A DNA stretch of 64,000 nucleotides from NCBI RefSeq assembly GCF_003111645.1, contig NZ_CP022187.1:310001-374000 (forward strand), written 5' to 3'. The stretch comes from Parazoarcus communis. Its GTDB lineage: Bacteria; Pseudomonadota; Gammaproteobacteria; Burkholderiales; Rhodocyclaceae. The notes under the pieces are model-generated. The model did not search any database, was not told the origin of the DNA, and saw only the letters and a list, made by a program, of their open reading frames with translations. Below, one piece after another: positions 33,981 to 58,516 of the stretch; positions within the stretch are counted from its first letter, which is position 1, and every line of letters begins with the position of its first letter. The position numbers were made by a program, and so were the translations under genes.

Positions 33981-34958
<978 letters not shown>

Positions 34959-38522: not shown

Positions 38523-38534
38523 GGTGCGTTCTCC

Positions 38535-39890
38535 TTATACCCGGCCTTTGGCGACCGCCATGTAGGCGGGCTTGAGCAGGCGGTATTTCATCAGCCAGGC
38601 AAAATAGCTGTCCTGCAGCGGGTCGATCATTGGCAGCGAGGGGGTCAGCCGGTTTTCGTAGTCAAACTCGACCAGCAGGGCCGCGCCTTCTCGAAGCAGC
38701 AGCGGGCAGGAGGTGTAACCGTCAAAGCGCTGCGACGGCTCGCGCCCGGCGATCACGTCCAGCAGGTTCTGGGCGACGAGTGGTGCGCTCTTCTTGATTG
38801 TTGCGGCGGTTTTCCCCTTGGGGGTGCCGTTGATGTCGCCAAGCCCGAACACGTTGGGGAAGCGACGATGACGCAGCGTCTCGCGATCGACTTCGAGCCA
38901 GCCGCCGGCGGCGAAACCCCCTTCTTTCCACGACAGGGGGCTGTTCCTGACGACGTCGGGCGCGCTCATCGGCGGTACAACGTGAATGAAGTCGTAGTCG
39001 ACTTCGGTGCGCTCGCCCTCCGGACTGGCGAAGGTGGCGCGCTGGGCGCCGATATCAACCGCGACCAGCTTGCTGTTGAACGTCACCGGGATGTCGAGCG
39101 CAGCCCAGCGTTTCAGCACTTCCTCGTTGATGCTGGGAACGCTGAAGACGTTACCGAGCGCGGAGTGAAACAGCACCTTCGAGCTGCTGCGCGTTCCAGA
39201 CTGCTTTAGGCGGTCGGCTACCATGAAGGTCATCTTCAAAGGCGCGCCGGCGCACTTGAGTGCAGTGGCAGGCAGGGTCATCAGCGCGGTTCCGCCTTTC
39301 TGGCGGAAGGCATCCATCGTTTTCCAGGTGGTCTGAGCTGCGTCCGGGCTGGGGTAGACGCTGGTCAGCCCGTTCTGGCCAATGGCCTTCACGTCCATGC
39401 CCTCGATCTGTTCAAAGTTCAGCTGCAGACCGGTGGCGACAACGAGATAGTCATAGCCGATGCGTTTTCCGCTCTCGGTCACCACTTCGTTGGCCTCGGG
39501 GTCAAACTCGGCGACCATCTCACGCACCCACTCGACGCCTGCCGGGATCAGGTCGGCATTGCGATCGCTGACTTTATCGACCGGCCAGATGCCTGTTGCG
39601 ACAAGCGTGTAGCCGGGCTGGTAGTTGTGAATTTCCTTGCGGTCGACGATGGTGATGCTCGCACCCTCAAGCTCGCGTGCAAGCCGGTTGGCGATTGCCA
39701 GACCGCCGAGGCCGCTCCCTGCAATGACGACGCGCGCAGATGTCTGCAGCGCAGCCTTCGACTCCGGTGATACGACCGACAACCCGACACCCGATGCAAG
39801 AGGCAGGCCGGTCATGCCCAGCAGCAGACGACGCCGTCCTGCGTCATGCTCATCTGCGGGTACCTGAATGGGGTGGTTCTTTGTGTTCAT
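38535..39890 (-). CDS. Sulfide:quinone oxidoreductase-like flavoprotein with Tat-type leader
   Basis: A 451-residue FAD-dependent oxidoreductase. After a twin-arginine leader (GRRRLLLGM, then a hydrophobic stretch) comes the FAD motif VVIAGSGLGGLAIANRLA, VVATGLQLNFEQIEG and FGLGDINGTPKGKTAATIKK. Two Cys match the redox pair of type II SQR/SQOR: Cys213 in LKCAGAPLK and Cys395 in GYTSCPLL, and the C-terminus (VEFDYEN...KYRLLKPAYMAVAKGR) resembles that group. It should oxidise sulfide to a sulfane sulfur and pass electrons to quinone. The leader predicts export, unlike most cytoplasm-facing SQR proteins. The downstream exported rhodanese fits a sulfide or persulfide pathway. A flavocytochrome c sulfide dehydrogenase flavoprotein is the main alternative. 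Confidence 0.85.
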   Translation of the reverse strand: MNTKNHPIQVPADEHDAGRRRLLLGMTGLPLASGVGLSVVSPESKAALQTSARVVIAGSGLGGLAIANRLARELEGASITIVDRKEIHNYQPGYTLVATGIWPVDKVSDRNADLIPAGVEWVREMVAEFDPEANEVVTESGKRIGYDYLVVATGLQLNFEQIEGMDVKAIGQNGLTSVYPSPDAAQTTWKTMDAFRQKGGTALMTLPATALKCAGAPLKMTFMVADRLKQSGTRSSSKVLFHSALGNVFSVPSINEEVLKRWAALDIPVTFNSKLVAVDIGAQRATFASPEGERTEVDYDFIHVVPPMSAPDVVRNSPLSWKEGGFAAGGWLEVDRETLRHRRFPNVFGLGDINGTPKGKTAATIKKSAPLVAQNLLDVIAGREPSQRFDGYTSCPLLLREGAALLVEFDYENRLTPSLPMIDPLQDSYFAWLMKYRLLKPAYMAVAKGRV

Positions 39891-43687: not shown

Positions 43688-43723
43688 CCGGAGTCCCTTC
43701 CTGCGCTGGTCTGTTATGCGCAT

Positions 43724-45169: not shown

Positions 45170-45781
45170 TCAATGTGGCTGGTCGGACTCCTCCCATCCC
45201 GTGATCATGGCCTTGATGTGGGCGAAGACCGTATGTCCGGTGGTGGTGAGATAGACGTGGATGAAGAAGAAGGCCGTGATCATGAAGGCCCCGATCGTAT
45301 GCGCCAGCGCAACCGACTCGAGCGACAGGTATTGCGCCAGACCAAGCTGCCCCCAGTTGCCGTAGAACAGATACAGCAGGCCCGACACCCAGATCAGCGG
45401 TGAGATGAAGGCCAGCAAGGCCAGGTAGGCCAGGCGCTGCAAGGGGTTGTGCTTGTGGCGCGCCGTCTTGTGGAAGGGGTGCGGGCTGTTTCTGAAGATC
45501 CCGATGGTGTAGTAGTTGACCATCGCCAGCACGTTCTTCATCGATGGAAGGTACTGCCGCCATTCGCCCGTCGTGAACTGCCAGAAGATGGTGAAGGCCC
45601 ACAGTAACAGCAGCGACCATGCGGCCACGGTGTGCACGCTCACGGCCTTGCCAAAGCCGAGCAGCGCGTAGCTGCCGTGTATCTCGAAACCGGTGATCAT
45701 CATGATGATGATCAGCGCAGCCTGCGACCAGTGCCAGAACCGTTCATAGCGCTTGTAGATGTAGATGCGTCCGGTGCTCAT
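45170..45781 (-). CDS. Cytochrome b561-type membrane subunit, partner of the octaheme cytochrome
   Basis: A 203-residue protein with four membrane helices. The first carries a heme-ligand His in RYERFWHWSQAALIIIMMITGFEIHG (in parts), with others in AVSVHTVAAWSLLLLWA and VALAHTIGAFMITAFFFIHVY. It resembles di-heme cytochrome b subunits of hydrogenases and formate dehydrogenases. Its ATG overlaps the octaheme cytochrome stop, so it is the natural quinol-oxidising membrane partner that feeds electrons to the periplasmic enzyme (inference). Confidence 0.85.
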   Translation of the reverse strand: MSTGRIYIYKRYERFWHWSQAALIIIMMITGFEIHGSYALLGFGKAVSVHTVAAWSLLLLWAFTIFWQFTTGEWRQYLPSMKNVLAMVNYYTIGIFRNSPHPFHKTARHKHNPLQRLAYLALLAFISPLIWVSGLLYLFYGNWGQLGLAQYLSLESVALAHTIGAFMITAFFFIHVYLTTTGHTVFAHIKAMITGWEESDQPH

Positions 45782-47403
45782 TGTTCATGCCTCCTGCGAC
45801 GGGTGACGATGCGGATCAGGCCATGCAGCAGGCCTGCTCCGATGGAGCCGGCGATGAGCATGCCGCCCAGCATGTCGATCCATTTGTTGTGATCACGACC
45901 CGGAATGTAGATGTCCGTGATCTCGGCAAGGCGGCCGTCAGCGGAGCGGGTGTGGCATTCCTGGCACGGAACGGCTTTCTCCTTGGGCGCGACCATGTGG
46001 GTGATGAACCAGTTCATGCGGGTTTCGATGAAACCGAACTCGCCGCTGTAGGGAAGCTCCGCGTAATCCATGCCGGCCTTGATTGACTTGGCGTAATCGA
46101 AGTTGCCCCAGAAGGCAGTGTCGTCCTTGCCGTAGACATGATTGACGACCAGGGTCTTGTTGATCTTGTCGTAGGGCTGCTTGCCGTGCATGACCTTGAA
46201 CGGCCAGATGCGGGCATTGGGGTCCTTCGCCGAGCCCTCGACCGCGTTGAGCTCAAGGACTTTCGTGTCGTCGATCGTGTCGGTGATCGCGATCTGATGA
46301 ACCACGCCGTTGTACCACTTGTATACCGGGCGCACGTTCTCGCCGTACTCGAAGTCGCCTTTCTCGGCAGAGTAGATCAGGTGTCCATGGTCGTTCTTGA
46401 TGAACAACGGCTTGCCGTCTGGCCCCCGCTTGCCGGCAGTCGACCAGTCCCAGAGCATCTTGGTCCCCAGGCCACCACGTGCGAACTCTGGAATGTGGCA
46501 GGTCTGGCAGGCGAGTCTGTCGGCATGCCTGTTGATCCGGTCCTCCATGTGCGGCGTCACGCCATGGCAGGATTCGCATGTTGCGCGGTTGTGGTCGTCG
46601 ACGGGCAGATCGAGCCCGTGCGTATCCTTCGGGTTGGCCGCGTAACGACTGCCCGAGGGCTGGTGTGCATTGAAGGTGTGGCAGTCAGCACAGGTCATGC
46701 TGGCGCCATCGACCGCCATGTGCACATCGAGCTCGCGGCTTGGCTTGATCAGTGAGCTGTCCAGGTCCCCGTGTTTCACCGCGTCTCCGCCACCGCCGTT
46801 GAAGTGGCAGGCTCCGCAGTTTTCGCGCCCGGGCTGCCCGACATGCTGGGCGATCTTCGCCAGATCCGGTGGTTGCACGATATTGCCACTGCCCTTGGGC
46901 ATTTCGCGCGGTTCGTACAGCGGGTGCCCGGCGTCGGTGGCAATCTTCTTGTAGGTGCCCGTCGTATCGTGACAGGCGAGACAATCGACGTTCTCCTGAT
47001 TGGTGAAGTCGAAGTCCTTGTCCTCCCAGCCATAACCGGCGTGGCAGCTGGTACAGCGTGGCTCATTGGAGATCGGCGAACCGCAGAAATTGTTCGCGGC
47101 GAACTTCTTGCCGAGCTTCTTGCCGGTGGTCGGGCTCACCGCTTCCCAGGTCCAGTGAATGCTCTTCATCACCTGGTGCCCTGCCTTGTTGTGACAGCTG
47201 AGGCAGGCGCGGGTGACATCCGGGCCCGTCGCGAAAGGGCCCTTCAACGCTTCGAGCTGGCTATGGTCCGTGGTAACAGTCGAGGTCGAGGCGGACTTCG
47301 CTGGGTGCGCAAGCGGCGCTGTCGTCGCGAGTGCGGGTGTCGGGCCGTGGAGCAGGGTGACCAGCAGACCCGCTCCGAACAGTTTTTTCCAGTGGAAGTT
47401 CAC
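45778..47403 (-). CDS. Octaheme c-type cytochrome, tetrathionate reductase (OTR) family
   Basis: A 541-residue exported multiheme protein. A signal peptide (residues 1–26) is followed by eight CXXCH heme motifs: CLSCH, CTSCH, CLACH, CGACH, CADCH, CESCH, CQTCH and CQECH. A C-terminal membrane helix (MLGGMLIAGSIGAGLLHGLI) tethers it to the inner membrane. The pattern, with a lysine pair just after the third heme site where OTR has its active-site Lys ligand, matches the octaheme tetrathionate reductase family, which can also reduce nitrite and hydroxylamine. Start GTG 47403 follows AAAGGAG; the ATG at 47451 lies outside the leader. The physiological substrate is unknown. Confidence 0.88.
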   Translation of the reverse strand: MNFHWKKLFGAGLLVTLLHGPTPALATTAPLAHPAKSASTSTVTTDHSQLEALKGPFATGPDVTRACLSCHNKAGHQVMKSIHWTWEAVSPTTGKKLGKKFAANNFCGSPISNEPRCTSCHAGYGWEDKDFDFTNQENVDCLACHDTTGTYKKIATDAGHPLYEPREMPKGSGNIVQPPDLAKIAQHVGQPGRENCGACHFNGGGGDAVKHGDLDSSLIKPSRELDVHMAVDGASMTCADCHTFNAHQPSGSRYAANPKDTHGLDLPVDDHNRATCESCHGVTPHMEDRINRHADRLACQTCHIPEFARGGLGTKMLWDWSTAGKRGPDGKPLFIKNDHGHLIYSAEKGDFEYGENVRPVYKWYNGVVHQIAITDTIDDTKVLELNAVEGSAKDPNARIWPFKVMHGKQPYDKINKTLVVNHVYGKDDTAFWGNFDYAKSIKAGMDYAELPYSGEFGFIETRMNWFITHMVAPKEKAVPCQECHTRSADGRLAEITDIYIPGRDHNKWIDMLGGMLIAGSIGAGLLHGLIRIVTRRRRHEQ

Positions 47404-47638
47404 GATGTCTCCTTTGTTCCAGCGGCGTGTGCGCGTTGCGCATGTGCCCATCCCTCTACCGTCGTACAGAGGGTCCCGCGGGGGCGGTCAGCTCGCAGTG
47501 CCGGGCGGTCTGCAAAGCAGTAAATCGATCATTTCTGATTCATTGTTGAGCAGCAGGGCCTGAAACCGGAGGGCTGAGGCTTGCTGCAGTCTGAAAATGC
47601 TGGCGCTGTCGCACGATGCGGCAAGGCCAGCGCGGAAA

Positions 47639-47938
47639 TCAGCCGAGGGTGTACAGCCTTATGGCCGCCAGCGCGACGCCGCCCAGACACGCAAGCCCGG
47701 AAAACAGCCAGCGCCAGGCGAAAAAGCGCGGTCTGAAACCGACGCCCGTCACGAAACCGGCACTCATCGCCCAGAACAGCGCCATCGCGGCCCAATGGTC
47801 GGCTCCACCGCCGGGTGCGGCGAGCGCCCCCGGCCAGATGGTGATGCCGAGCATGATGGCGATGGCGGCGAGCAGCGGCAGCAACTGAATGCTGCTGCCG
47901 GGCTGGACAACCGCCGGGTCAGTTTGCCGGTCGGTCAT
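47639..47938 (-). CDS. ybgE: cyd operon membrane protein YbgE-like
   Basis: A 99-residue protein with three hydrophobic segments (IQLLPLLAAIAIMLGITI, MALFWAMSAGFVTGVGF and WLFSGLACLGGVALAAI). Its place at the end of the cytochrome bd operon, right after cydX, and the WPGAL-type motif (TIWPGALAAPGG) identify it as the YbgE-type accessory protein. Its function is not well defined. Its ATG overlaps the cydX stop by 20 bp. The 235 bp between its stop and the octaheme gene start hold no gene. Confidence 0.8.
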   Translation of the reverse strand: MTDRQTDPAVVQPGSSIQLLPLLAAIAIMLGITIWPGALAAPGGGADHWAAMALFWAMSAGFVTGVGFRPRFFAWRWLFSGLACLGGVALAAIRLYTLG

Positions 47939-48071: not shown

Positions 48072-48094
48072 CGTGTGCTCCTTTCTCTATTGGC

Positions 48095-49237
48095 TCAGTA
48101 GGCCGAGTGTTCGTTTTCGCGGATGTAGGCGGTCGTGACCTTGCCCGACATCACCTTGTAGGCCCAGCTCGTGTAGATGATGATCAGGGGCATGAAGATG
48201 ATCGTGGCCCAGAACATGATGCCCAGTGTGCGATGGCTGGAGACGCTGTCCCACACCGTCAGGCTGGCGGCCGGCATGGTCGAGGACGGCATCAGGAAGG
48301 GGAACATCGACACCCCGGCCGTACCGATCACGCCCACGATGGCGAACGACGATGCGACGAATGCGGTGAGCGTGCGGCCACGCGCCACCATCAGCATGCC
48401 AACGGCGGTGCCGAGGTAGGCGATTGCCGGCACGATCAGGGTCAGTGGCATGTCGCGGTAGTTCGCAAACCAGGCGCCGCTTTGCTGCACAACGGTCTTC
48501 GACATCGGGTTGGGCTGGGCTGCGGCATCAACGGCAGAGGTGATCACGTAGCCGAAGTTGCCTTGCGCCAGCCAGATGCCGGCACCAGTGAAGCCCACCA
48601 GCATCAGCGCACCGAATACCAGTGCGGCGGTGCGCGCCCGGTTCTGTATTTCACCCTCCGTACGGTGCGCCAGATAGATCGCGCCATGGAAGGTGATCAT
48701 CGCCGTGCTCACCACGCCGGCAAGCAGCGCAAACGGATTCAGCAGGCCCCAGAACGACCCGGTGTAGTACGACACCAAGTTGTTGTCGAAGTGGAAGGGC
48801 ACGCCTTGCAGCAGGTTGCCGAATGCGACGCCAAAGATCAGCGGCGGCACCGCACCGCCGACGAACAGGCCCCAGTCCCAGGTCGTCCGCCACGTGGCGT
48901 TGTGGATCTTGCTGCGGTAGTCGAAGCCGACGGGCCGGAAGAACAGGGCCCACAGCACGGCCAGCATGGCCCAGTAGAAGCCGGAGAAGGCGGTGGCATA
49001 CACCAGCGGCCAGGCGGCAAAGATGGCGCCGCCGCCGGTGATGAACCACACCTGGTTGCCATCCCAGTGCGGTCCTACAGTGTTGATCACGACTCGACGC
49101 TCTTCGTCGTTCTTGCCGACGAAGGGCAGCAGCGTGCCGACGCCCATGTCGTGACCGTCCATGATGGCAAAGCCCACGAGCAGTACGCCCACGAGAATCC
49201 ACCAGATGAGTTTCAGGGTCGGGTAATCGAAGATCAT
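48095..49237 (-). CDS. cydB: Cytochrome bd ubiquinol oxidase subunit II
   Basis: A 380-residue, multi-helix subunit of the high-affinity terminal oxidase. It begins MIFDYPTLKLIWWILVGVLLVGFAIMDGHDMGVG (in parts), with VGPHWDGNQVWFITGGGAIFAAWP (in parts) and DYRSKIHNATWRTTWDWGLF, all conserved in CydB. The length is normal. It lies 15 bp after cydA in the operon cydP–cydA–cydB–cydX–ybgE. Confidence 0.97.
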   Translation of the reverse strand: MIFDYPTLKLIWWILVGVLLVGFAIMDGHDMGVGTLLPFVGKNDEERRVVINTVGPHWDGNQVWFITGGGAIFAAWPLVYATAFSGFYWAMLAVLWALFFRPVGFDYRSKIHNATWRTTWDWGLFVGGAVPPLIFGVAFGNLLQGVPFHFDNNLVSYYTGSFWGLLNPFALLAGVVSTAMITFHGAIYLAHRTEGEIQNRARTAALVFGALMLVGFTGAGIWLAQGNFGYVITSAVDAAAQPNPMSKTVVQQSGAWFANYRDMPLTLIVPAIAYLGTAVGMLMVARGRTLTAFVASSFAIVGVIGTAGVSMFPFLMPSSTMPAASLTVWDSVSSHRTLGIMFWATIIFMPLIIIYTSWAYKVMSGKVTTAYIRENEHSAY

Positions 49238-49252
49238 GGTCTTGGCTCCTGA

Positions 49253-50821
49253 TCAGGCTTTGGCAGCAGCGTGGTGGGTTTCGTTGAGATAACGGCCAGT
49301 ACCGAGGCTGCCCGGCCCCTGGCGGGCAAAGCGAACCATCAGGTACATCTCGACCACGAGCAGCAGGGTGTAGAAGCCGATGAAACCGGCGAGCGAGCCA
49401 TACAGACTTTCCACGGTCAGCGTCGACACCGAAAGGTGGGTCGGCAGTACGCCGTAGATGGTCCAGGGCTGCCGGCCATACTCGGCGACAAACCAGCCCA
49501 TCTCACAGGCCAGCCAGGGAACGGGCAGGAACCACAGCGACCACTTCAGCAGCCAGGTGCGGGTGGCGAAATCGCCCTTGATCGAATACCACAGCGCAAG
49601 ACCGAACAGCGCGAGCATGGCAAAGCCCATCGCCACCATGATGCGGAAGGTCCAGAACAGCGGCGCGACGCGGGGCAGGGTGTCGCGGGTGGCGCGGTCG
49701 ATGATCTCCGGGGTGACATCATCCATCGACACGACGTACTTCTTGAGCAGCAGGCCGAAGCCGAGATCGGCTTTCACCTTGTCAAAGGCAGCACGGGTCG
49801 CGTCGTCGGCCGGCGCCTGACGCAGCTTCTCAAGCAGGCGAACAGCTTCGATGCCGGTGACGATGCGCTCGCGATTCTTGACCAGGATCTCCTTGATGCC
49901 GGGCAGTTCCTTGTCGAGCGAACGGGTGCCGATGATGCCCATCGCCCAGGGGATATGAATGGCAAAGTCGTTCTTCATCTCCTCCTGGTTGGGGATGGCG
50001 ATCACGTTGAAGCTGGCGGGCGCCGGTTCGGTTTCCCACATGGCTTCCATCGCGGCGAGCTTGGTCTGCTGGGCTTCGCCGAGTGCGTAGCCGGACTCGT
50101 CGCCGAGCACGATCACCGAGCACACCGACGCAAAGCCAAAAGCGGCCGCAATGCGGAAGCTGCGCTTGGCAAACTCGATATCACGCCCCTTCAGCAGGTA
50201 CCAGGCCGAGATCGACAGCACGAACATTGCGCCGGTGACATAGCCTGCCGACACCGTATGCACGAACTTGCCCTGTGCGACCGGATTGAACAGCACCGCC
50301 CAGAAGTCGGTGAGTTCCATGCGCATGGTTTCATAGCTGAACTCGGCCCCGACCGGGTTCTGCATCCAGCCGTTGGCGATCAGAATCCACAGGGCAGACA
50401 GGTTTGTCCCCACCGCCATCAGAATCGTCACCAGCAGATGCTGGCGGCGCGAGAGCCGGTCCCAGCCGAAGAAGAACAGACCGATCATGGTCGATTCGAG
50501 GAAGAAGGCCATCAGGCCCTCGATGGCAAGCGGGGCGCCGAAGATGTCGCCCACGTAGTGCGAGTAGTACGCCCAGTTGGTGCCGAACTGAAACTCGAGC
50601 GTAATGCCGGTGGTGACGCCAAGTGCAAAGTTGATGCCGAACAGCTTGCCCCAGAATTTGGTCATGTCCTTGTAGACGGTCTTGCCCGTCATTACATAGA
50701 CACTCTCCATGATGACCAGCATCCAGACCATGCCAAGCGTAAGCGGCACAAACAGGAAGTGGTACATCGCTGTTGCGGCAAACTGCAGCCGCGACAGGTC
50801 TACGAGTTGTTCACTGACCAT
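49253..50821 (-). CDS. cydA: Cytochrome bd ubiquinol oxidase subunit I
   Basis: A 522-residue subunit carrying hemes b558, b595 and d; it oxidises ubiquinol and reduces oxygen to water at low oxygen. It starts [30 protein letters not shown] (in parts) with the heme b595 His near residue 19. Conserved GWM-type segments and the long Q-loop follow ([20 protein letters not shown]). Length equals E. coli CydA. Three ATGs are possible; 50821 has a GGAG six bases upstream. It follows cydP with a 10-bp overlap. Confidence 0.97.
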
Positions 50822-51020
50822 CGTGTTCTCCATCAATCGAGATTTGTTGTTTTGCAGATGCTGACGGTGCAAACCTGGCTGCAACGCTGTCGGGCGCCAC
50901 GGGCACCTTCTCCTCGCGAACGAAAACCCACCACAGGGCGGTGATCAGAACAAGCTTGATCAGGACGACCAGGACGAGTTCACGAACGAGTTTGCGATCG
51001 GATGTGGCAGCTTGTGGCAT
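50811..51020 (-). CDS. cydP: Cytochrome oxidase small subunit CydP
   Basis: A 69-residue membrane protein. [20 protein letters not shown] leads into one helix ([20 protein letters not shown]) and a polar tail. This matches the CydP family found at the head of betaproteobacterial cyd operons. ATG 51020 follows AGGAAACTCC on the complementary strand; the longer frame to 51068 has no site. It overlaps cydA and leads the operon behind the FNR box. Confidence 0.85.
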
Positions 51021-51083
51021 AGGAAACTCCAGGTTTGCTTGAATCCTATCAAGATCCGTACCACACATAAAAGCAATAAAAAG

Positions 51084-51138: not shown

Positions 51139-51151
51139 TGCCATAGTGGCA
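51139..51151. promoter_or_regulatory. TGCCA-TAG-TGGCA palindrome ahead of the sigma-54 activator gene
   Basis: A perfect 5-3-5 palindrome 35 bp before the activator's ATG. The same arms occur at 52575–52587 and, with a longer spacer, at 57259–57283 near sigma-54 promoters. It is probably the activator's own binding site used for autoregulation. Confidence 0.6.
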
Positions 51152-51186
51152 GATTGGTTGCGCCAACATGTCAAGAGTGACAGTCC

Positions 51187-52548
51187 ATGTCTGCCGACCC
51201 GCGACCACTGCCAGAACTCGTTTCATTCATAGAAACGCTGCCGGAACCCCACATCCTGTGCGACCGTGACTACCGGATCATCGCGGCCAATGCGGCGTAC
51301 CGAAGTTCGTGCGCCGACGGTCGCAGCGTGGTCGGTCGCACCTGCTACGACGTGTCGCATCACTACAGCGTCCCCTGCGACCGGGCAGGAGAGTCCTGTC
51401 CGCTGTCGCGAAGCCTGCAGTCCGGGCAGCGTGAGCGGGTGCTGCATCTGCATCACACACCGCGTGGCGAGGAGTACGTCAACATCGAGCTTTCGCCGGT
51501 CCGTGACGGCAGCGGGGAGATCGCCTGGTTCATCGAGAAGATGGAGCCGATGCCGGTTGCGCGCGGGGTGTCCGACAACCATGGCCTGATCGGCCGTGCG
51601 CCCGCCTTTCAGCGCATGCTGGAACTGGTGGTGCGGGTTGCGCCATCGGAGGCCAGCGTCCTGCTGCAGGGCGAGTCCGGCACCGGCAAGGAACTTGTCG
51701 CCAGTGCGGTGCATGAAGCCAGCCGGCGTGCGGATCGGCCCTTCGTGGTGGTGGATTGCTCCGGGCTCCCCGATACCCTGTTCGAGAGTGAAGTCTTCGG
51801 CCATGAGCGTGGCGCCTTCACCGGCGCGGTGGCGCGCAAGCCGGGGCTCGTCGAGGCCGCCAGCGGCGGCACGCTCTTCCTCGACGAGGTCGGCGACATT
51901 CCGCTGAGCATGCAGGTCAAGCTGCTGCGCCTGCTCGAAACCGGCACCTATCGTCGCGTCGGCTCAACCGAGTTGCGCCGCGCCGATATTCGTCTGGTGT
52001 CGGCGACCCACCGCCCCCTGCAGGAGATGATCGGCGACGGGTCGTTCCGGCAGGACCTGTACTTTCGCCTGAATACCTTTCCGATCATTGTTCCACCCTT
52101 GCGCGAGCGGCTTGAAGACTTGCCCCTGCTGGTCACTTCCTTGCTCGAACGTGTCGCGCCGAACCGCAAGCTTGAACTGTCCGCCGATGCCATGCAGGTA
52201 CTCGCGGCCTATCCGTTTCCGGGCAATGTGCGTGAGCTTCGCAATGTGCTGGAGCGTGCGAGCCTGATGTGTGACGGCGACATGATTCATCCTGAACATC
52301 TGGCTGAAGAGATCAGGCAGGGGGCTGCCGCCATGCCCCCACCGGGTCGGTCTGTGCATGAGAGCGCAGCGATTGCCTTGGGCGGGCATGCCGTGCCGGA
52401 TCTTGGCGAACTCGAACACCAGGTGCTGCGACAGGCGGTGATCAGCCATCGGGGGAGCCGGCGTGAGCTCGCTGCCAGACTGGGGTTGAGCGAACGCACG
52501 CTCTACCGGCGCCTGAAAGCGCTCGGGCTGGACAAGGCGCTGGACTGA
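51187..52548 (+). CDS. Sigma-54-dependent activator with cysteine-rich PAS sensor
   Basis: A 453-residue enhancer-binding protein. The N-terminal PAS domain (about residues 12–120) has five cysteines (25, 42, 53, 64, 71), three in a [20 protein letters not shown] stretch that could bind metal or sense redox state. The AAA+ domain has Walker A GESGTGKE (162–169), GAFTGA (209–214), the sigma-54 contact loop, Walker [10 protein letters not shown] and the arginine-finger region. A Fis-type helix-turn-helix ends it ([20 protein letters not shown]). It has no receiver domain, so the signal is sensed directly. It is divergent from the cyd operon and is the likely controller of the sigma-54 promoters downstream. 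Confidence 0.93.
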
Positions 52549-52591
52549 CGGCTGCCAGATCGATTGGCAGGTACTGCCATCATGGCAGCCG
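52549..52591. promoter_or_regulatory. Enhancer cluster of TGCCA/TGGCA palindromes
   Basis: CGGCTGCCA at the left and TGGCAGCCG at the right bracket further sites: TGGCAG at 52565, CTGCCA at 52574 and the 5-3-5 palindrome TGCCA-TCA-TGGCA at 52575–52587. The cluster ends 60 bp before the sigma-54 promoter, the distance expected of an upstream activating sequence. Confidence 0.7.
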
Positions 52592-52650
52592 TGGCAGCGC
52601 GGTGGAATCGGGGCTGTTTTGCATCTATCTGAAAAATATAGGTTTCCTGT

Positions 52651-52668
52651 TTGGCACGCAGATTGCTA
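52651..52668 (+). promoter_or_regulatory. Sigma-54 promoter of the Rieske operon
   Basis: TTGGCACGCAGATTGCTA fits the -24/-12 consensus (TGGCACG-N4-TTGCW) at every key base, with GG at 52653–52654 and GC at 52665–52666, ten bases apart. Transcription should start near 52677, about 165 bp before the Rieske start. The leader has no other gene. Confidence 0.85.
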
Positions 52669-52842
52669 ATTCGAATGTGAAGCGAGGCTGTATCGCAATC
52701 GTCGTCCGGTCTTCACCTCTGAGACCCCCCAACCCCTTGGTGCTGCGATTGCGTATGACAAGTGCCTGAATGGCACGACATCCGGCCTCGCTTCCTTTTT
52801 TCGAACGCATTTCAATCGCAAGAACCGAACGAGGGAGCGTCC

Positions 52843-53433
52843 ATGTCTGACTGCCTTAAGGACCGTCGTAAACTGCTCATTGCCACAGGCGGAGCTGGTG
52901 CCGTTGCAGCCGCAGCGAGTGCCGTCCCCTTTGTGGCCAGCCTGACGCCGTCCCAGCGTGCGCGCGCCGCAGGTGCGCCTGTCGAGGCGGATGTCAGCAA
53001 ACTGGCCGCCGGCGAGATGATGACCGTCGAATGGCGCGGAAAGCCGGTGTGGATTCTCCGTCGCACGCCGGAAATGCTGGCTGCGCTGGAAGGGCATGAC
53101 CAGGATCTCGCCGATCCCGGCTCCAGTGAAAACCAGCAGCCGGCGTATGCGGCAAACCGGCACCGCTCGATCAACCCCGAGTTTCTGGTGGTTGTCGGCA
53201 TCTGTACCCACCTGGGCTGCTCGCCCTCCGAGAAGTTCGCGCCGGGTGCGGAAAGCGGTGTCCGGGCCGACTGGCCGGGCGGCTTTCTGTGCCCGTGTCA
53301 CGGTTCCACCTTCGATCTGGCCGGCCGTGTCTTCCTGAGCCAGCCGGCGCCGACCAATCTTGAAGTGCCCCCGTACATGTGGCTGTCCGATGCGGTTGTC
53401 CGCATCGGCGAGGACGAGAGCGGAACGGCCTGA
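52843..53433 (+). CDS. Rieske iron-sulfur protein (PetA-like), orphan
   Basis: A 196-residue protein that resembles the Rieske subunit of cytochrome bc1. A twin-arginine-type leader/anchor (DRRKLLIATGGAGAVAAAAS) precedes the Rieske domain with CTHLGC at 121–126 and CPCHGS at 150–155; ligands Cys121, His123, Cys150 and His153 and the disulfide pair Cys126–Cys152 are all present. No cytochrome b or c1 gene follows, so this is not the usual petABC operon. A sigma-54 promoter controls it and a NifX-like gene follows about 100 bp downstream. It may replace the normal Rieske protein under a special condition or serve another electron path. Confidence 0.9.
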   Translation: MSDCLKDRRKLLIATGGAGAVAAAASAVPFVASLTPSQRARAAGAPVEADVSKLAAGEMMTVEWRGKPVWILRRTPEMLAALEGHDQDLADPGSSENQQPAYAANRHRSINPEFLVVVGICTHLGCSPSEKFAPGAESGVRADWPGGFLCPCHGSTFDLAGRVFLSQPAPTNLEVPPYMWLSDAVVRIGEDESGTA

Positions 53434-53537
53434 TCGGTCAGGTCCGCACCCTTTCCCCGGCGCCGGCGTGTGGCGCAATCGGCAAGGCGGGAGCGACCGC
53501 CTCATGTTTGAGGCAATGCACAGCAGGAGTACCCATC

Positions 53538-53939
53538 ATGAGAGTTGCAGTCACAAGCCAGAACTTCAGCACCGTCACCGCCCATGCAGGCAAGGCGAGG
53601 CGCTTTCTGATCTACGACATCAGCAATCCGTGTTCGCCACGTGAAGTAGAGCGACTGGATCTGCCCAGGGAAATGTCATTCCACGAGTTTCACGGCGATC
53701 ACCATCCGATCGACGGTGTTGACGCACTGGTGACCGGCGGCGCGGGTGAGGGCTTTGTCGCGCGTCTGGGACAGCGTGGTATCGAGGTCGTGATGTGTGG
53801 CGAGACGGATCCGCTGCAGGCGGTAAAGGACTACATCCAGGGCACAGTCAAGCCTGTTACGCCCGGCGAACAAGAGCATGGCCACCATCACCACCATCAC
53901 CACCATCACCACCACAGCCACGGCAATCATCAGCACTGA
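53538..53939 (+). CDS. NifX/NifB-type cofactor-binding protein with a His11 tail
   Basis: A 133-residue protein of the dinitrogenase iron-molybdenum cofactor (NifX/NifB-C) family: MRVAVTSQNFSTVTAHAGKARRFLIYD, FHGDHHPIDGVDALVTGGAGEGFVARLGQRGIEVVM and TDPLQAVKDYIQGTV (in parts). Members bind Fe–S clusters or Mo/Fe cofactors; no nif genes are here. The C-terminus is an exceptional His-rich tail with eleven consecutive His (HG-H11-SHGNHQH), likely a metal store or sensor. An AGCAGGAG site precedes ATG 53538. It follows the Rieske gene under the same sigma-54 promoter and is closed by a hairpin. Confidence 0.82.
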   Translation: MRVAVTSQNFSTVTAHAGKARRFLIYDISNPCSPREVERLDLPREMSFHEFHGDHHPIDGVDALVTGGAGEGFVARLGQRGIEVVMCGETDPLQAVKDYIQGTVKPVTPGEQEHGHHHHHHHHHHHSHGNHQH

Positions 53940-53960
53940 TCCTGATTGAACACCGCGAAG

Positions 53961-53996
53961 AAATACGGCGGCCTGCACAGACAGGTCGCCGTATTT
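53961..53996. terminator. Terminator between the NifX-like and CcdA-type genes
   Basis: AAATACGGCG and CGCCGTATTT, extended inward by CCTG/CAGG around one mismatch, form a long stem ending in A/T tracts on both sides. It can serve both convergent operons. Confidence 0.75.
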
Positions 53997-54020
53997 ACTT
54001 GTGTGGCGGTGGCGTCGGGC

Positions 54021-55244
54021 TCAGCTGAGCCATTCGGGTCTGAGCAGCATGATCAGGCCCAGGCCAAGCATGGCGATGCCGCTGAGCAGCTTGAGCGCCC
54101 GGCCACCCCTTTCGCCGAGTTTCGCACTGCCCAGCGCAATGACGGCCAGCGTGACCATCAGGGCATCGTCCGCGATGTAGCCGACGATGTAGAGCCCGAG
54201 ATAGGCATAGTGTGCGAGGGGGCCGAGTTGCTGCTGGGTGAGGACTGCCGTGTACAGGGCAGGCAGACCGGCAGTGCACAGGAGCTCGACGAAGTTGACG
54301 ATGACGGCCAGCACCGCAACGCCCACCAGCGAGGCGCCAAGACGCTCTGCCTTGAGGATGTCGCGGATCCGGGCATAAAGCCCGGGCTTCACCGAGTCGG
54401 GGATCGAAAGCGATATGCCGCGGCCCGCCGCGACAAAGTCCTTTACATTGATGATGCCGATCAGAATGGCCACGCAGGCAAGGGCGGCCCGAATCGCTGC
54501 CGACATGCCCACGAACAGAAATATGTTCAGCCACGCGGCCATGAACGCGTAGTACACCGCGCCGCTCACCAGCACGAAGGTGCCAGCGACCAGCGCCATG
54601 CGTCTGCGGCTCTTCAGACGCACCAGCAGCGACAGCAGGAACAGCAGCAACCACATTGCGCAGGGGTTGAAGCCGTCCAGCAGGCCCATGCTCAGCGTGA
54701 ACAGGGGCAGGCCCAGCTCCGAGGCGCTCAGGGTGCCGAACTGCCGGGTCTCGATTGCGTCGTTTATCGGTCGGTCTCCGATCAGCGCGCGCAGTTCGGC
54801 GCCCATGTGCTCGGCATCGTCGAAGCCAACCAGAATGCGGTCTCCGATCACGAACATGGGCACACCCGGCGGCCAGATCCCGGCGCTGCGGCTCAGCTCA
54901 ATCAGCGCGTCGCGCGCCGTTTCGTCGCGATCGACTTCGCGGAAGACGATGCGGAGATCAGGACGCTCGGCAGCCAGTTGCCTGAGGAAGTCCTTTGCAG
55001 CGGTGCAATGCGGGCAGCCCTCGCGTACAAAGACCGACAGCGCCGCAGGAGAGGCGTTTGTCTCCACGGTCTGATCGGCCACGCTGGCGGCGCTGGCAGA
55101 AACGGCAATGGCGGCCAGCACAAGAAGGAGCAGCACGTGTGCCATCCGGAAGAGCGCGTGCCACTGAAATACGCCGCGCCGCTTCAGGGACGTGGCGCGA
55201 TTTTCGTGGGGCGCGGATGGGGCGGCTCGACTCGTCGATTGCAT
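54021..55244 (-). CDS. Glutaredoxin–CcdA/DsbD-type membrane fusion
   Basis: A 407-residue protein. After an N-terminal membrane segment (VLLLLVLAAIAVSASA) comes a thioredoxin/glutaredoxin domain with CPHC in VREGCPHCTAAKDFL near residue 75 and cis-Pro in GVPMFVIGD. The C-terminal half has about six helices with FNPCAMWLLLFLL and a second conserved Cys in VELLCTAGLPAL, the paired cysteines of CcdA/DsbD transporters. It should carry reducing power across the membrane to the periplasm. ATG 55244 is preferred for its GGAGGTGA site. It is the last gene of the Prx–anion channel–CcdA set. Confidence 0.82.
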   Translation of the reverse strand: MQSTSRAAPSAPHENRATSLKRRGVFQWHALFRMAHVLLLLVLAAIAVSASAASVADQTVETNASPAALSVFVREGCPHCTAAKDFLRQLAAERPDLRIVFREVDRDETARDALIELSRSAGIWPPGVPMFVIGDRILVGFDDAEHMGAELRALIGDRPINDAIETRQFGTLSASELGLPLFTLSMGLLDGFNPCAMWLLLFLLSLLVRLKSRRRMALVAGTFVLVSGAVYYAFMAAWLNIFLFVGMSAAIRAALACVAILIGIINVKDFVAAGRGISLSIPDSVKPGLYARIRDILKAERLGASLVGVAVLAVIVNFVELLCTAGLPALYTAVLTQQQLGPLAHYAYLGLYIVGYIADDALMVTLAVIALGSAKLGERGGRALKLLSGIAMLGLGLIMLLRPEWLS

Positions 55245-55320
55245 GGGGGGTTCACCTCCGGCCGCCCTCCAGCTTGCAGACACCTGCTGCGCTTCCCGCT
55301 GGCCCGGCGGCGGGCCGCAT

Positions 55321-56307
55321 TTACTCGGGTACGCAGATCTGCTCCCGTTTCGCGGCGATCAGTGTTTTCCAGCTCAGCACGATCACCACCGCTGACAGCA
55401 AGGCGAGCAGGGCCCACCCAAGGCCGGCATAGAAAGCGAGGCCGCTGCGCACATGCATTTCGAAGGTGGCGATCGCCATCGCAGCCAGAGGGAAAGAGTA
55501 GGCCCAGGCCGAGATGAAGAAAGGCAGGCGCAGGAAGCGCAGGGCGTTGCTTGCCAGCAGCAGGGTGAGGAAGAGCGCAACGAAGTACAGCACGCGCGCC
55601 GCGCCATCGAGCGAATCGGTCAGCGCGAGGTAGGAGATGAAACCCACTGCCGGCGGTGCGATGAGGATGAACAGGGTGGGTGTGAGGCGTGCCGGAAGCG
55701 CTTCATGGAAGAACAGGCGATAGAGCACGATGGTCAGGAGCACCAGCCAGAACACCAGCCCGATGCTGAAGAAGAACCAGCTGATGTCGGGCGGTGCGTA
55801 GCGCACGCCGGCAATCGGCACCAGGATATTGCCCACCACCGGAATGAACCACGCGGGGTTGGCGTGCTTGATGTCGTAATGCGTATGGTGAATCCAGCTG
55901 CTCATCGCGGACAGCGTGAACAGCAGGTGGGCGATCACTCCCATGCCCCACATGTACCGCGCAACGCCGGGCGCAGTCGATGTCCAGGCGATCGACAGCA
56001 GGATGAGGCCGATGGATATGGCGGGAAAGAAGTTCAGCCGCACCGGGTGTGAGTGTTCGGCGGCGACGGCGTCCGGATGGCGGAGCAGCTTCATCGCGTA
56101 CACGATGAGCAGAAAGACGTACAGACCGCTTGTGAGCAGGCGCAGCGATTCGCCGATCACCGCGGGGGCGCCGCCGACATGGGCGGCCTTGATCCAGGCA
56201 ATGCTCAGTCCGGCCATCCCCATTACGGTGGAAAAAAGGGCAATCGGGAAGTGCTCAAGCCTTGATTCAGCGCCCGGATGTGGCTTGGCTGATGCAGAGG
56301 CGGTCAC
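55321..56307 (-). CDS. SLAC1/TehA-family (TDT) anion transporter
   Basis: A 328-residue inner-membrane protein with ten predicted helices, starting with FPIALFSTVMGMAGLSIAW, which matches the first helix and gate of TehA/SLAC1 proteins. Later helices include FFPAISIGLILLSIAW and WAYSFPLAAMAIATFEMH. Family members are anion channels; the fungal relative Ssu1 exports sulfite, while TehA was tied to tellurite resistance. The substrate here is unknown. Its redox neighbours make sulfite or another oxyanion a reasonable guess. It lies between the peroxiredoxin and CcdA-type genes on one strand. Confidence 0.85.
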   Translation of the reverse strand: MTASASAKPHPGAESRLEHFPIALFSTVMGMAGLSIAWIKAAHVGGAPAVIGESLRLLTSGLYVFLLIVYAMKLLRHPDAVAAEHSHPVRLNFFPAISIGLILLSIAWTSTAPGVARYMWGMGVIAHLLFTLSAMSSWIHHTHYDIKHANPAWFIPVVGNILVPIAGVRYAPPDISWFFFSIGLVFWLVLLTIVLYRLFFHEALPARLTPTLFILIAPPAVGFISYLALTDSLDGAARVLYFVALFLTLLLASNALRFLRLPFFISAWAYSFPLAAMAIATFEMHVRSGLAFYAGLGWALLALLSAVVIVLSWKTLIAAKREQICVPE

Positions 56308-56346
56308 GGTTCAATACTCCGATTCAATGTTGACGTTCGACCCCCG

Positions 56347-56378
56347 GCCGGTTCGCACACGGGGGCATGCGAACCGGC
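56347..56378. terminator. Perfect 11-bp hairpin after the peroxiredoxin gene
   Basis: GCCGGTTCGCA and TGCGAACCGGC pair around a ten-base loop, 10 bp after the peroxiredoxin stop and 40 bp before the SLAC1-type start. Without a T-run it may act as a partial terminator or mRNA stabiliser that sets gene ratios. Confidence 0.5.
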
Positions 56379-56387
56379 TTTCAGGGC

Positions 56388-57032
56388 TTACAAGGACTTG
56401 GTCGAGTAGTACCAGTCGACCGTGTCGTAACCTTCGGAAGCCCGTTTGTTCGCCGCATCTGCAGTCTTTGGCGGCGGCACGATGACGGGTTTGCCCGGAC
56501 ACCAGTTCTCGGGTGTGGCAACACCGTTTGCATCGGAGGTCTGCAGTGCCTGCAGCAGGCGGACGAACTCGTCGATGCTGCGACCATTGCTCATCGGATA
56601 GTAGACCATTGCCCGCAGAATGCCATTGGGATCAATGAAGAAGGTCGCGCGCACGGCCTGCGTGTCGGCTGCGCCCGGATGCACCATGCCGTAGGCCCGG
56701 GCGACGTCCATCTTGATGTCTTCGATGATCGGGAAGGGGATCTCGACGCCGAATTTTTCCTTGATGTTGCGGGTCCATGCCAGGTGCGAGAACAGGCTGT
56801 CGATCGACAGGCCAAGCAGTTCGCAACCCATTTCGTCGAACTTCGGCGCGGCATTGGCGAAGCCGATGAATTCCGTCGTGCATACCGGAGTGAAGTCAGC
56901 CGGATGCGAGAACAGGATCAGCCACTTGCCACGGTAATCCTCCAGCTTGCGGTCGCCGTGCGTGGTCTTGGCTTTGAAGGCGGGCGCGGGGGCGTTCAGT
57001 TGCGGGAAGCTGGCTTGTTGTTCGTTTTCCAT
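56388..57032 (-). CDS. Peroxiredoxin (Prx6/AhpC-TSA type)
   Basis: A 214-residue thiol peroxidase. The peroxidatic Cys51 lies in HPADFTPVCTTEFIGF; DYRGKWLILF and ATFFIDPNGILRAMVYYP are family-typical, and the length and C-terminal domain (GVATPENWCPGKPVIVPP, in part) match Prx6-group enzymes. Two further cysteines (DEMGCELLG; ENWCPGKP) could form a disulfide with Cys51. It reduces hydrogen peroxide or organic peroxides in the cytoplasm. ATG 57032 is preferred to 57038 because the GAGGAG site is correctly spaced from it. A sigma-54-type promoter lies upstream. Confidence 0.93.
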   Translation of the reverse strand: MENEQQASFPQLNAPAPAFKAKTTHGDRKLEDYRGKWLILFSHPADFTPVCTTEFIGFANAAPKFDEMGCELLGLSIDSLFSHLAWTRNIKEKFGVEIPFPIIEDIKMDVARAYGMVHPGAADTQAVRATFFIDPNGILRAMVYYPMSNGRSIDEFVRLLQALQTSDANGVATPENWCPGKPVIVPPPKTADAANKRASEGYDTVDWYYSTKSL

Positions 57033-57134
57033 GATCATTCTCCTCTAGGGGCAATGCCGGCTGTCTCATCTTCCGTGCCGGCGCCTTGCGATGGCCAGGG
57101 CACACGCGATGTGCTGTGCCTCCGTCATTCCAAC

Positions 57135-57151
57135 AGCAAGGCATGTGCCTG
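57135..57151 (-). promoter_or_regulatory. Sigma-54-type promoter toward the peroxiredoxin operon
   Basis: The bottom strand reads CAGGCACATGCCTTGCT: GG and GC are ten bases apart as sigma-54 requires, and TTGCT is a perfect -12. The -24 box (AGGCACA) differs from consensus at two bases. It lies about 105 bp before the peroxiredoxin start. Confidence 0.6.
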
Positions 57152-57258
57152 AATCCCCGAACCACGGCGGGGGTGCCAGAGCGCTTTGTTTCTGTGGGGA
57201 AATTCCTGAGACAGCTGACGCGCAACCCTTCGCGAGAACCGCCATCGCGCCTGATTTT

Positions 57259-57283
57259 CTGCCATTCGCTGCCGAAATGGCAG
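57259..57283. promoter_or_regulatory. Long palindrome between divergent sigma-54 promoters
   Basis: CTGCCATT and AATGGCAG form exact arms around a nine-base centre that itself contains a CTGCC. The arms match the TGCCA/TGGCA sites near 51.1 and 52.6 kb. It lies 75 bp upstream of one promoter and 110 bp upstream of the other, so one bound activator could fire both. Confidence 0.7.
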
Positions 57284-57358
57284 TGACAGCTTTCTGGTCT
57301 GTTTGCCCCTGGATTCTGCAAGTGTCTGTCGAAGAACATCTTTATCGATGACGAAGGA

Positions 57359-57376
57359 TTGGCACGAGACTTGTTA
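57359..57376 (+). promoter_or_regulatory. Sigma-54-type promoter toward the 130-aa protein and MBL genes
   Basis: TTGGCACGAGACTTGTTA has a perfect -24 (TTGGCACG) and a -12 with GT in place of GC, at the correct ten-base spacing. It lies 52 bp before the next ATG. Confidence 0.65.
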
Positions 57377-57428
57377 GAAGCCTGTTGCCTGGCCGATTTA
57401 CGCCGGTCTCTTTGACAGGAACCCAGCC

Positions 57429-57821
57429 ATGAAGAACACGCTCCTCGCAGACAAATACCCCATCCACGTTCTGGAGCTCGAAAAGGCCGAAACGCCTCGC
57501 GCCCACCTCGATGAACTGTTGCGAGCCCTGAAAGCAAAGGCGGAGGCGGATCCGGGCGTCGCGATGATTGCGATCTTCGATCACTTCGCCCACACCACGG
57601 TGCAGGGAGGCGAGATCCGTTCGGACATCCTTGCTGCGAAGAACCTGATCTTCTGTTTTGGCCCCAGGTTGCCCGATCCGGCAATGATGGCGGTCCGGCC
57701 GCGCTCGATCGGTATCGCCGAACTGCCGGACCGCTTCGTCATCAGCTTCCTCGAAGCGCCGATGCCGGAAGCCAATCGCAAGATGACGGAGTGGGTCCTC
57801 GGTCTGCGCGGTGCAGCCTGA
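57429..57821 (+). CDS. Unknown 130-residue protein of the sigma-54 cluster
   Basis: A small soluble protein not recognised. It reads MKNTLLADKYPIHVLELEKAE, then HLDELLRALKAKAEADPGVA, IAIFDHFAHTTVQGGEI, LIFCFGPRLPDP with its only Cys, and SFLEAPMPEANRKMTEWVLGL. The alternating helices and strands suggest a compact alpha/beta fold. It follows a sigma-54-type promoter and precedes the MBL-fold gene by 11 bp. A redox or sulfur-related role is suggested only by the neighbourhood. Confidence 0.75.
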   Translation: MKNTLLADKYPIHVLELEKAETPRAHLDELLRALKAKAEADPGVAMIAIFDHFAHTTVQGGEIRSDILAAKNLIFCFGPRLPDPAMMAVRPRSIGIAELPDRFVISFLEAPMPEANRKMTEWVLGLRGAA

Positions 57822-57832
57822 GCCAGACGACC

Positions 57833-58516
57833 ATGATCGCGCACGGTGTTCCCGTGATCTTCAGGCCGGTCGAGGGGCACGCGACCGGCCAGATTGGCTA
57901 TGTGCTGGGTGATTCCGCTGACGGAGTTGCTGTCGTTATCGACCCGCCTGCAGGCGAAACCGAACTGATCCTCGCGCTGCTCACCGAGAGCGGCCTGCGT
58001 CTGGTCATGGTGTTGCGCACCCATGTGCATGCGAACGACACCGGAAACTGTGCCGCCTTGTGCGAGCGAACCGGTGCTGTGCTGGTGAGCGGTGAAACCG
58101 CCCGGAATGGATCAGATGCGGTGCGTCGGGTGGGTCACGGCGATGTGCTGACATTCGGGGGGCAGGTCATACGTGTGCTTGCCACCCCGGGCCACACGCC
58201 GGATTGTGTCAGCTACCTGTGGCACGACCGGCTCATGTGTGGTGACACCTTCGACCTTGGCAGTTGTTCCGCTGAGGGTAGCGAGGCGAATCCGGCCGAG
58301 CTTTACGACAGCCTGACCCGACACATCTTCCCTTTGCCCGATCAGGTTCTGGTTTTTCCGGCCCACGCGATGAAGGCCCGCCGTGTTGCAATGCTGGCGG
58401 AACTGAGGGCGCGCCTGACGCCAGTGCTCGCCAGAGGGCGCGATGCCTTCATTACCGAAATGGCGTCGCGGCAGCGGAGCGGGTCGGCAGGGTCGGGATC
58501 GTCGCGCGCGTACTAG
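57833..58516 (+). CDS. MBL-fold protein with altered metal motif (ETHE1-like)
   Basis: A 227-residue metallo-beta-lactamase-fold protein resembling persulfide dioxygenases (ETHE1) and other glyoxalase-II-like proteins. The fold markers VVIDPPAG, TPGHTPDCVSYL (His121), MCGDTF (Asp138) and FPAHAM (His178) are present. The first motif, normally THxHxDH, reads THVHANDT: His64 and His66 are kept, but the Asp and last His are replaced by Asn68 and Asp69. This removes part of the canonical binuclear site while leaving a possible mononuclear iron site. Start ATG 57833 follows the 130-aa gene by 11 bp. It could be an active mono-iron dioxygenase or a binding protein. Confidence 0.8.
   Translation: MIAHGVPVIFRPVEGHATGQIGYVLGDSADGVAVVIDPPAGETELILALLTESGLRLVMVLRTHVHANDTGNCAALCERTGAVLVSGETARNGSDAVRRVGHGDVLTFGGQVIRVLATPGHTPDCVSYLWHDRLMCGDTFDLGSCSAEGSEANPAELYDSLTRHIFPLPDQVLVFPAHAMKARRVAMLAELRARLTPVLARGRDAFITEMASRQRSGSAGSGSSRAY

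Follow-up and report, generated by a model that had tools for sequence, protein, structure and literature searches.

We analyzed a 64-kb stretch of the Parazoarcus communis genome (the window) in which the gene for a sigma-54-dependent activator lies among genes for redox proteins, and we consider it likely that this locus is a FisR-type sulfide/sulfane-sulfur regulon. An earlier, sequence-only reading had placed eight genes here: the activator, an orphan Rieske protein, a NifX-like protein, a peroxiredoxin, a SLAC1/TehA-type channel, a glutaredoxin–CcdA fusion, an unknown 130-residue protein and a metallo-beta-lactamase-like (MBL) protein with an altered metal site. Profile matches and window positions bear out all eight (Table 1).

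The activator combines PAS_4, Sigma54_activat (222 bits) and HTH_8 domains, confirming its description as a PAS-type sigma-54 activator and making up the FisR domain set of a sensor, a sigma-54 AAA+ domain and a Fis-type helix-turn-helix. It carries cysteines at positions 53, 64 and 71, which we take to be those of the FisR sensor. This C-x10-C-x6-C triad is found in 21 of 21 alignment rows whose N-terminus could be read (that of the window among them; the count omits the L033 row and L048, N-terminus ended by a contig end) and also in the L033 orthologue, outside the alignment; C25 and C42 vary in the same alignment. Matches to the activator at E≤1e-100 occur in 20 of 61 genomes, that of P. 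communis counted; no other activator of the P. communis genome is more than 47% identical to it. In Cupriavidus metallidurans, an activator 52% identical to that of the window has MBL-like and sulfide:quinone oxidoreductase (SQR; 40%) homologues divergent from it. FisR is described as a sigma-54 activator in which three conserved cysteines sense reactive sulfur species (PMC9774590). Because the window's activator has the FisR cysteine triad, and because its Cupriavidus relative stands with a persulfide dioxygenase (PDO)-like/SQR pair and the same palindrome, the activator is, by its sequence, of the FisR type already described, and the core of the system is therefore known. The sequence-only reading had recognised no described system in this combination, a view that does not survive for the activator.

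These genes keep company with the activator well beyond P. communis. A GTDB genome scan with a PAS alignment gave at least 573 relatives, and the best 80 were kept as named FisR loci; partners were counted with thresholds of E≤1e-6 for the match and 40% for coverage. The synteny check proposed by the earlier reading found MBL in 52 loci, Rieske in 45 and CydA in 42 (some MBL and CydA matches being weak, at 23-33% identity), with CydP in 33, so these genes are far from never occurring together. By comparison, none of the nine partner families was found in 20 arbitrary 20-kb control regions out of nine relatives, where only AAA+ cross-matches and one SQR appeared. NifX-like (12 loci), DUF6858 (9), peroxiredoxin (8), SLAC1 (5) and glutaredoxin–CcdA (3) are sporadic partners and hence weaker members. 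Protein-family clustering, which together with the promoter survey below covered the window and 102 other loci (103 in total), found further families: CcoG (25 loci), a YbgE-like protein (22), an SQR-like TAT flavoprotein (19), truncated globin (17), a second SQR-like family (14), a DsrE-like family (assigned by eye; 11) and two rhodaneses (8 and 7). SQR, DsrE or rhodanese families occur in 33 of the 80 named loci, and these or MBL in 50; with the FisR triad, they lend weight to the link to reactive sulfur that had been offered earlier as an inference. In the window, the PDO-like MBL gene lies 5 kb from the activator and an SQR-like gene 11 kb.

The earlier list of regulon members was right in that the activator's company recurs, and incomplete in that it passed over the minus-strand genes at 45170-51020 and a fourth promoter (51063-51048, minus strand). 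These divergent genes, cydP-cydAB-ybgE, encode a cytochrome bd oxidase and very probably belong to the regulon; together with Rieske and MBL, they are the most constant partners of the activator. On a Pseudoalteromonas replicon, a triad-bearing activator likewise stands divergent from annotated cydP, cydB, cydX and ybgE. An octaheme cytochrome (19 of 103 loci) and its neighbouring cytochrome b (15 of 103) are probably, not certainly, in the cyd operon. The bd oxidase is described as resistant to sulfide, and cydAB as induced by sulfide in Acinetobacter (PMC7315123, PMC8148161).

Sigma-54 sites were scored with a hand-weighted matrix that favoured C at -12. The three promoters proposed earlier are where they had been placed. 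Score alone proves little, since the window is hardly enriched in sites by count: five score at least 14, versus 2.35 expected in simulated sequence, and 53 at least 9, versus 58. One site at 41460 (minus strand, 14.6) outranks the peroxiredoxin promoter, and one at 55144 (minus strand, 15.7, window rank 2) was discounted as lying within the glutaredoxin–CcdA coding region. What sets the promoters above chance is their position and sense-strand conservation. In 350-bp upstream regions, sense sites of at least 14 were found for cydP in 25/38, Rieske in 27/51 and MBL in 13/61 orthologous regions, versus antisense sites in 0/38, 0/51 and 1/61; 1.9% of 1030 random 370-mers scored as high. The other genes gave sense sites in 4/10 (peroxiredoxin), 3/18 (NifX-like), 2/10 (SLAC1), 2/11 (DUF6858) and 0/7 (glutaredoxin–CcdA) regions, with 2, 0, 0, 2 and 1 antisense sites, respectively. 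The antisense matches of peroxiredoxin and DUF6858 (in the window and L031) arise because two divergent promoters share one spacer. Conservation thus backs the cydP, Rieske and MBL promoters strongly but gives only thin evidence for those of the other genes. One genome represented twice (L032 and L053, with identical Rieske) is still counted twice in the per-gene promoter, MBL, clustering, Rieske-tree and -12 counts.

Consensus searches were less informative. The plain consensus TGGCACN5TTGC with three mismatches was useless (641 matches vs 679 by chance). Exact TGGCACGN4TTGMW has 10 matches in the P. communis genome, and only the match in the window belongs to this locus; by eye, several of the others lie before nifH-like, flagellar or other genes or within genes. 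The regulon can therefore not be delimited by a strict consensus. The -12 element of sigma-54 promoters usually ends in TTGC. Upstream of eight families, however, the base after exact TGGCACGN4TTG was A at 50 of 72 sites, C at 13, T at 8 and G at 1; at the 26 cydP sites it was A 22 times, T 4 times and never C. This A excess is no artefact of the matrix, since the matrix favoured C. At 15 such sites in other parts of these loci, the base was A 7, C 5, T 2 and G 1 times, and there TTGA may come in part from unrecognised sites or chance. An excess of TTGA at FisR-linked -12 elements is therefore suggestive, not proven.

Palindromes tie the promoters together. As the sequence-only reading had noted, palindromes with the same arms lie near the activator and the promoters: TGCCA-N2-15-TGGCA occurs four times in the window (starts 51139, 52553, 52575 and 57260), always within the locus, and the centres lie about 71-121 bp upstream of sigma-54 promoters, with all four promoters covered. 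In the whole P. communis genome, CTGCCA-N3-13-TGGCAG has 14 sites (3 in the locus) versus 6 for a reversed control pattern. Across loci, counting unique promoter regions only, TGCCA-N3-14-TGGCA was found within 300 bp upstream in 47 of 111 regions versus 20 of 1030 control stretches, and 34 of 57 centres lay 80-99 bp upstream, the usual position of sigma-54 activator sites. In C. metallidurans, a TauE-like gene (by eye) is preceded by a sigma-54 site (15.4) with CTGCCATCATGGCAG about 104 bp upstream; on the other side of the activator, the MBL and SQR homologues come with a sigma-54 site, TGGCACGGGTTTTGAG (12.1), and the palindrome TGCCAACTTGGCA. Elsewhere in the P. communis genome, CTGCCATGAATGGCAG precedes by about 110 bp a sigma-54 site (12.3) that stands some 430 bp ahead of an SQR-globin pair; this operon is a predicted remote member of the regulon. 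Downstream of CTGCCATGAATGGCAG are genes for an SQR-like protein, a truncated globin and, by eye, a thioredoxin-like protein (L178:4562-6705; genome 594561-596704). A palindrome at 1312893, the same 15-mer as in the window, has no sigma-54 site of at least 12 near it and was set aside.

These data also bear on whether the genes are mere neighbours, with different activators serving the promoters and FisR governing only cyd or only Rieske. The cluster has been rebuilt in many orders, some partners are rare, and besides the activator the P. communis genome encodes at least 15 sigma-54 activator-like proteins; all this would suit such an arrangement. Yet each of the four promoters has a palindrome of one class at 71-121 bp, a class absent from the rest of the 64 kb, and palindromes and promoters co-occur across loci, which makes mere neighbourhood highly improbable.

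Several observations weigh against a FisR-type sulfide regulon. The window's own cydP promoter is weak; a stronger version is conserved in orthologues. Peroxiredoxin, SLAC1, DUF6858 and glutaredoxin–CcdA are rare partners, two of the 80 loci (L062 and L083) are without any partner family and 19 have one only; L062 and others are contig fragments. No palindrome was found near the PDO gene (957183) or a 67%-identical SQR gene (3624054) of the P. communis genome. PAS proteins of other kinds may often carry the triad motif, too. FisR of Acinetobacter is described as lacking the triad, which is therefore not the sole route, and the account of cydAB induction there does not demonstrate dependence on FisR (PMC7315123).

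Also on this side is a FisR-like, triad-bearing gene directly before norC and norB, with a sigma-54 site (14.7) near, in L047 (9298-12690). It fits an activator that senses nitric oxide or a general respiratory block, with the bd oxidase, octaheme cytochrome, globins and peroxiredoxin as a nitrosative-stress set, as do the truncated globins (see above) and the resistance of bd oxidases to several poisons. This reading seems unlikely to us: L047 is the sole one of 103 loci in which norB and norC were matched, whereas SQR, DsrE or rhodanese families are frequent; the NorR and NifA models (NCBIfam equivalogs for NorR) score 292.9 and 324.3 bits on the activator, below their cut-offs of 476 and 528.85; and the sensor is PAS_4, not the GAF domain of NorR.

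The orphan Rieske protein is 72% identical to the Rieske protein of the bc1 operon in the same genome (4216505, beside cytochrome b). In a FastTree of 80 Rieske proteins, 50 FisR-linked copies (two from the same genome) split completely from 30 others (branch support 0.72), and bc1 cytochrome b stood beside Rieske in 30/30 comparison loci and 0/103 FisR loci. This clean split and the lack of cytochrome b in FisR loci point to an old, dedicated paralogue. Unlike the tree, no alignment column tells FisR-linked and bc1-linked copies apart at thresholds of 85%/80%. Functionally redundant Rieske genes outside the bc1 operon have been described in Rubrivivax (PMC6256036). The tails of the NifX-like protein are rich in His, Asp or Cys in most of 18 homologues and vary in length.

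The altered metal site of the MBL protein is real: HVHAND replaces HxHxDH. Its closest sequences are persulfide dioxygenases, and in its predicted model (pLDDT 89.9) the protein adopts a persulfide-dioxygenase fold, the top Foldseek matches being persulfide dioxygenase/ETHE1 structures 4ysb, 4chl, 5ve3 and 9g8t (TM about 0.8). Pfam gave no match; NCBIfam alone gave GloB, Blh and MBL matches. Among 64 FisR-linked copies, five keep HxHxDH and 59 have lost its Asp-His. The 59 retain H64 and H66 (59 each), H121 (58) and H178 (55), and carry C136 (57); at position 138, 33 of them have Asp and 26 have Gly. All five unchanged copies have Thr at 136, so that loss of Asp-His and gain of Cys go together. 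H64, H121 and D138 of the window's protein presumably correspond to the 2-His-1-Asp iron ligands of ETHE1. Because these three residues are kept, it may still be an oxygenase; copies with Gly138 could hardly be so by the ETHE1 route. The C. metallidurans homologue, 26% identical, has canonical HVHADH.

The 130-residue protein called unknown by the sequence-only reading is present, and it belongs to the DUF6858 family. Residues D51, H52, H55 and C76 are invariant in an alignment of 10 sequences, which hints at a metal site. Its model (pLDDT 85.6) gave weak, DcrB/DUF302-like fold matches (E≥0.003), a PDB search gave no credible match, and we found no paper on the family in the openly licensed PMC literature. 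The CcdA-like membrane half of the glutaredoxin fusion had no Pfam match. The SLAC1 motif is present in the yeast sulfite pump Ssu1 (PMC6765260), and by this analogy a sulfite channel is a fair guess for the SLAC1 protein. With its own promoter and a thiol-based sensor in the locus, the peroxiredoxin could instead, with the glutaredoxin, belong to a response to hydrogen peroxide, the sulfur link being incidental. We find this scarcely credible: peroxiredoxin stands beside the activator in few of the named loci, where the bd oxidase, Rieske and PDO-like proteins dominate, and it is compatible with a sulfur role as well, since Synechococcus peroxiredoxin I reduces S8 (PMC9426444).

For the FisR-type sulfide/sulfane-sulfur regulon, we infer the inducer, the DNA binding of the activator and what the individual products do as follows. 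Sulfide would enter and sulfane sulfur (persulfide, polysulfide) would form and react with C53, C64 and C71 in the PAS-type domain, whereupon the AAA+ ATPase would open sigma-54 RNA polymerase complexes; such a mechanism has been published for Cupriavidus FisR. The activator would bind CTGCCA-Nx-TGGCAG about 70-120 bp upstream of the -24/-12 promoters. It would thereby switch on cydP-cydAB-ybgE and, probably, the octaheme cytochrome and cytochrome b genes behind them, so that bd oxidase could respire while sulfide blocks copper-haem oxidases; a second, exchangeable bc1-type Rieske protein with a NifX-like metal or cluster carrier; the peroxiredoxin and glutaredoxin/CcdA-like protein, which would reduce persulfides, and SLAC1, which could export sulfite; and DUF6858 with the persulfide-dioxygenase-like protein.

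The closest known systems share parts of this arrangement. FisR of Cupriavidus pinatubonensis, reported together with its sulfide-oxidizing genes (Li et al. 2017, doi 10.1111/mmi.13725), is likewise a sigma-54 activator with three conserved sensor cysteines (PMC9774590), but in P. communis respiratory genes (cydAB, Rieske, octaheme cytochrome) make up most of the targets, with peroxiredoxin, SLAC1 and DUF6858, and no canonical PDO or SQR gene adjoins the window's activator. The C. metallidurans relative shares the palindrome and lies beside PDO-like and SQR genes. In Acinetobacter baumannii, a sigma-54 FisR adjoins and activates a divergent pdo-sqr-tauE operon and sulfide induces cydAB, but that FisR is described without the cysteines and cydAB lies at a separate locus (PMC7315123). 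The exchangeable Rieske described for Rubrivivax gelatinosus (Ouchane et al. 2005, cited in PMC6256036) is likewise outside the bc1 operon and redundant with its Rieske; the FisR–Rieske link in Rubrivivax comes from metagenome-assembled loci (L084, L097, L101, L131 and L126) in which a Rieske gene adjoins fisR. Persulfide dioxygenase/ETHE1 is closest to the MBL protein in fold and sequence and differs in the metal-site changes given above. In the openly licensed PMC literature, we found no description of FisR with cydAB, Rieske or DUF6858, which is weak evidence of absence. As far as these searches show, the FisR-type core is known, and its extension across Betaproteobacteria to respiratory genes, Rieske, DUF6858 and a rebuilt MBL is apparently undescribed.

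The recurrence of this gene set in many related bacteria makes sulfide tolerance and respiration look wired together. We tentatively advance a wider joint claim, which is more doubtful than the regulon itself: in Rhodocyclales/Burkholderiales, FisR might command a 'sulfide-proof respiration' beyond sulfide oxidation, comprising bd oxidase, a bc1 Rieske variant that is ancient and dedicated to this role, and an MBL enzyme with a new thiolate site; this MBL, with C136 (plus H64, H66, H121 and H178) in place of the second-metal Asp-His, might do other sulfur chemistry, such as persulfide transfer or sensing; and FisR promoters might form a sigma-54 class with -12 TTGA. Thauera, Azoarcus and other heterotrophic denitrifiers are exposed to sulfide, and N2O release is said to rise as a result (PMC11782648). 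For such bacteria the locus would be a testable genetic programme for sulfide tolerance, with a direct link from a sulfane-sulfur sensor to a sulfide-resistant oxidase. It would also explain the persistence, in some bacteria, of a Rieske gene that is not part of the bc1 operon, and it draws attention to DUF6858 and to a protein in which the PDO fold holds a new metal site.

Table 1. Features of the FisR-type locus and its surroundings (window coordinates)
Feature	Position	Strand	Basis or remark
cytochrome b adjoining octaheme gene	45170..45781	-	NF011582 108.7 bits, below cut-off 204
octaheme c-type cytochrome, tetrathionate reductase family	45778..47451	-	TIGR04315 637.3 bits, cut-off 375
YbgE-like cyd-operon protein	47639..47938	-	PF09600 76.9 bits, cut-off 25.2; NCBIfam YbgE below cut-off
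cydB, cytochrome bd subunit II	48095..49237	-	named by likeness; 45/103 loci
cydA, cytochrome bd subunit I	49253..50833 (start 50833 or 50821)	-	likeness and gene order beside Pseudoalteromonas activator
cydP, small cytochrome oxidase subunit	50811..51020	-	NF045611 57.1 bits, cut-off 29.6
weak sigma-54 promoter TGGTACGGATCTTGAT, cydP-cydAB	51048..51063	-	score 12.0
palindrome TGCCATAGTGGCA, candidate FisR site	51139..51151		centre ~82 bp upstream of cydP promoter
fisR-like gene	51187..52548	+	PAS_4, sigma-54 AAA+ domain with GAFTGA, HTH_8; C53, C64, C71
palindrome CTGCCAGATCGATTGGCAG	52552..52570		genome 362552
palindrome CTGCCATCATGGCAG	52574..52588		15-mer, identical in C. metallidurans fisR locus
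sigma-54 promoter TGGCACGCAGATTGCT, before Rieske	52652..52667	+	score 18.9, window rank 1
orphan bc1-type Rieske	52843..53433	+	TIGR01416 214.8 bits, cut-off 97.4
NifX-like protein with His11 run	53538..53939	+	PF02579 (Nitro_FeMo-Co) 38.1 bits, cut-off 26.3
glutaredoxin domain and membrane part	54021..55283 (start uncertain)	-	PF00462 34.1 bits; membrane part by eye
SLAC1/TehA-type (tdt) anion channel	55321..56307	-	PF03595 194 bits; below TehA equivalog cut-off
peroxiredoxin with 1-cysPrx_C domain	56388..57038	-	NF009668 289.8 bits, cut-off 211
sigma-54 promoter AGGCACATGCCTTGCT, prx-slac1-grx/ccdA	57135..57150	-	score 14.5, window rank 5
palindrome CTGCCATTCGCTGCCGAAATGGCAG	57259..57283		between two divergent promoters; genome 367259
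sigma-54 promoter TGGCACGAGACTTGTT (TTGTT), before DUF6858	57360..57375	+	score 15.0, window rank 3
DUF6858 protein	57429..57821	+	175.9 bits, cut-off 27
persulfide-dioxygenase-like MBL	57833..58516	+	H64, H66, H121, D138, H178 kept; N68-D69 replace Asp-His; C136
type III SQR-like flavoprotein	38535..39890	-	NF049943 204.4 bits, below cut-off 525; family in 19/103 loci

Farther out in the window, the SQR-like flavoprotein gene had no upstream sigma-54 site of at least 9.6 among the 40 best window sites listed; it lies with genes for a small membrane protein, a response regulator and a large sensor-like protein (38184-43723). A cysteine-synthase-like gene (by eye; 33981-34958) is 17 kb from the activator. 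The PDO gene elsewhere in the P. communis genome has an intact HAHADH and is followed by a truncated globin gene, behind a two-component system by eye (L153:4684-5800; genome 957183-958299). In L090, L114 and L116, the peroxiredoxin gene lies directly behind that of the activator (74-76% identical), and a gene for a TPMT-like methyltransferase (Pfam, L090 copy) is near.

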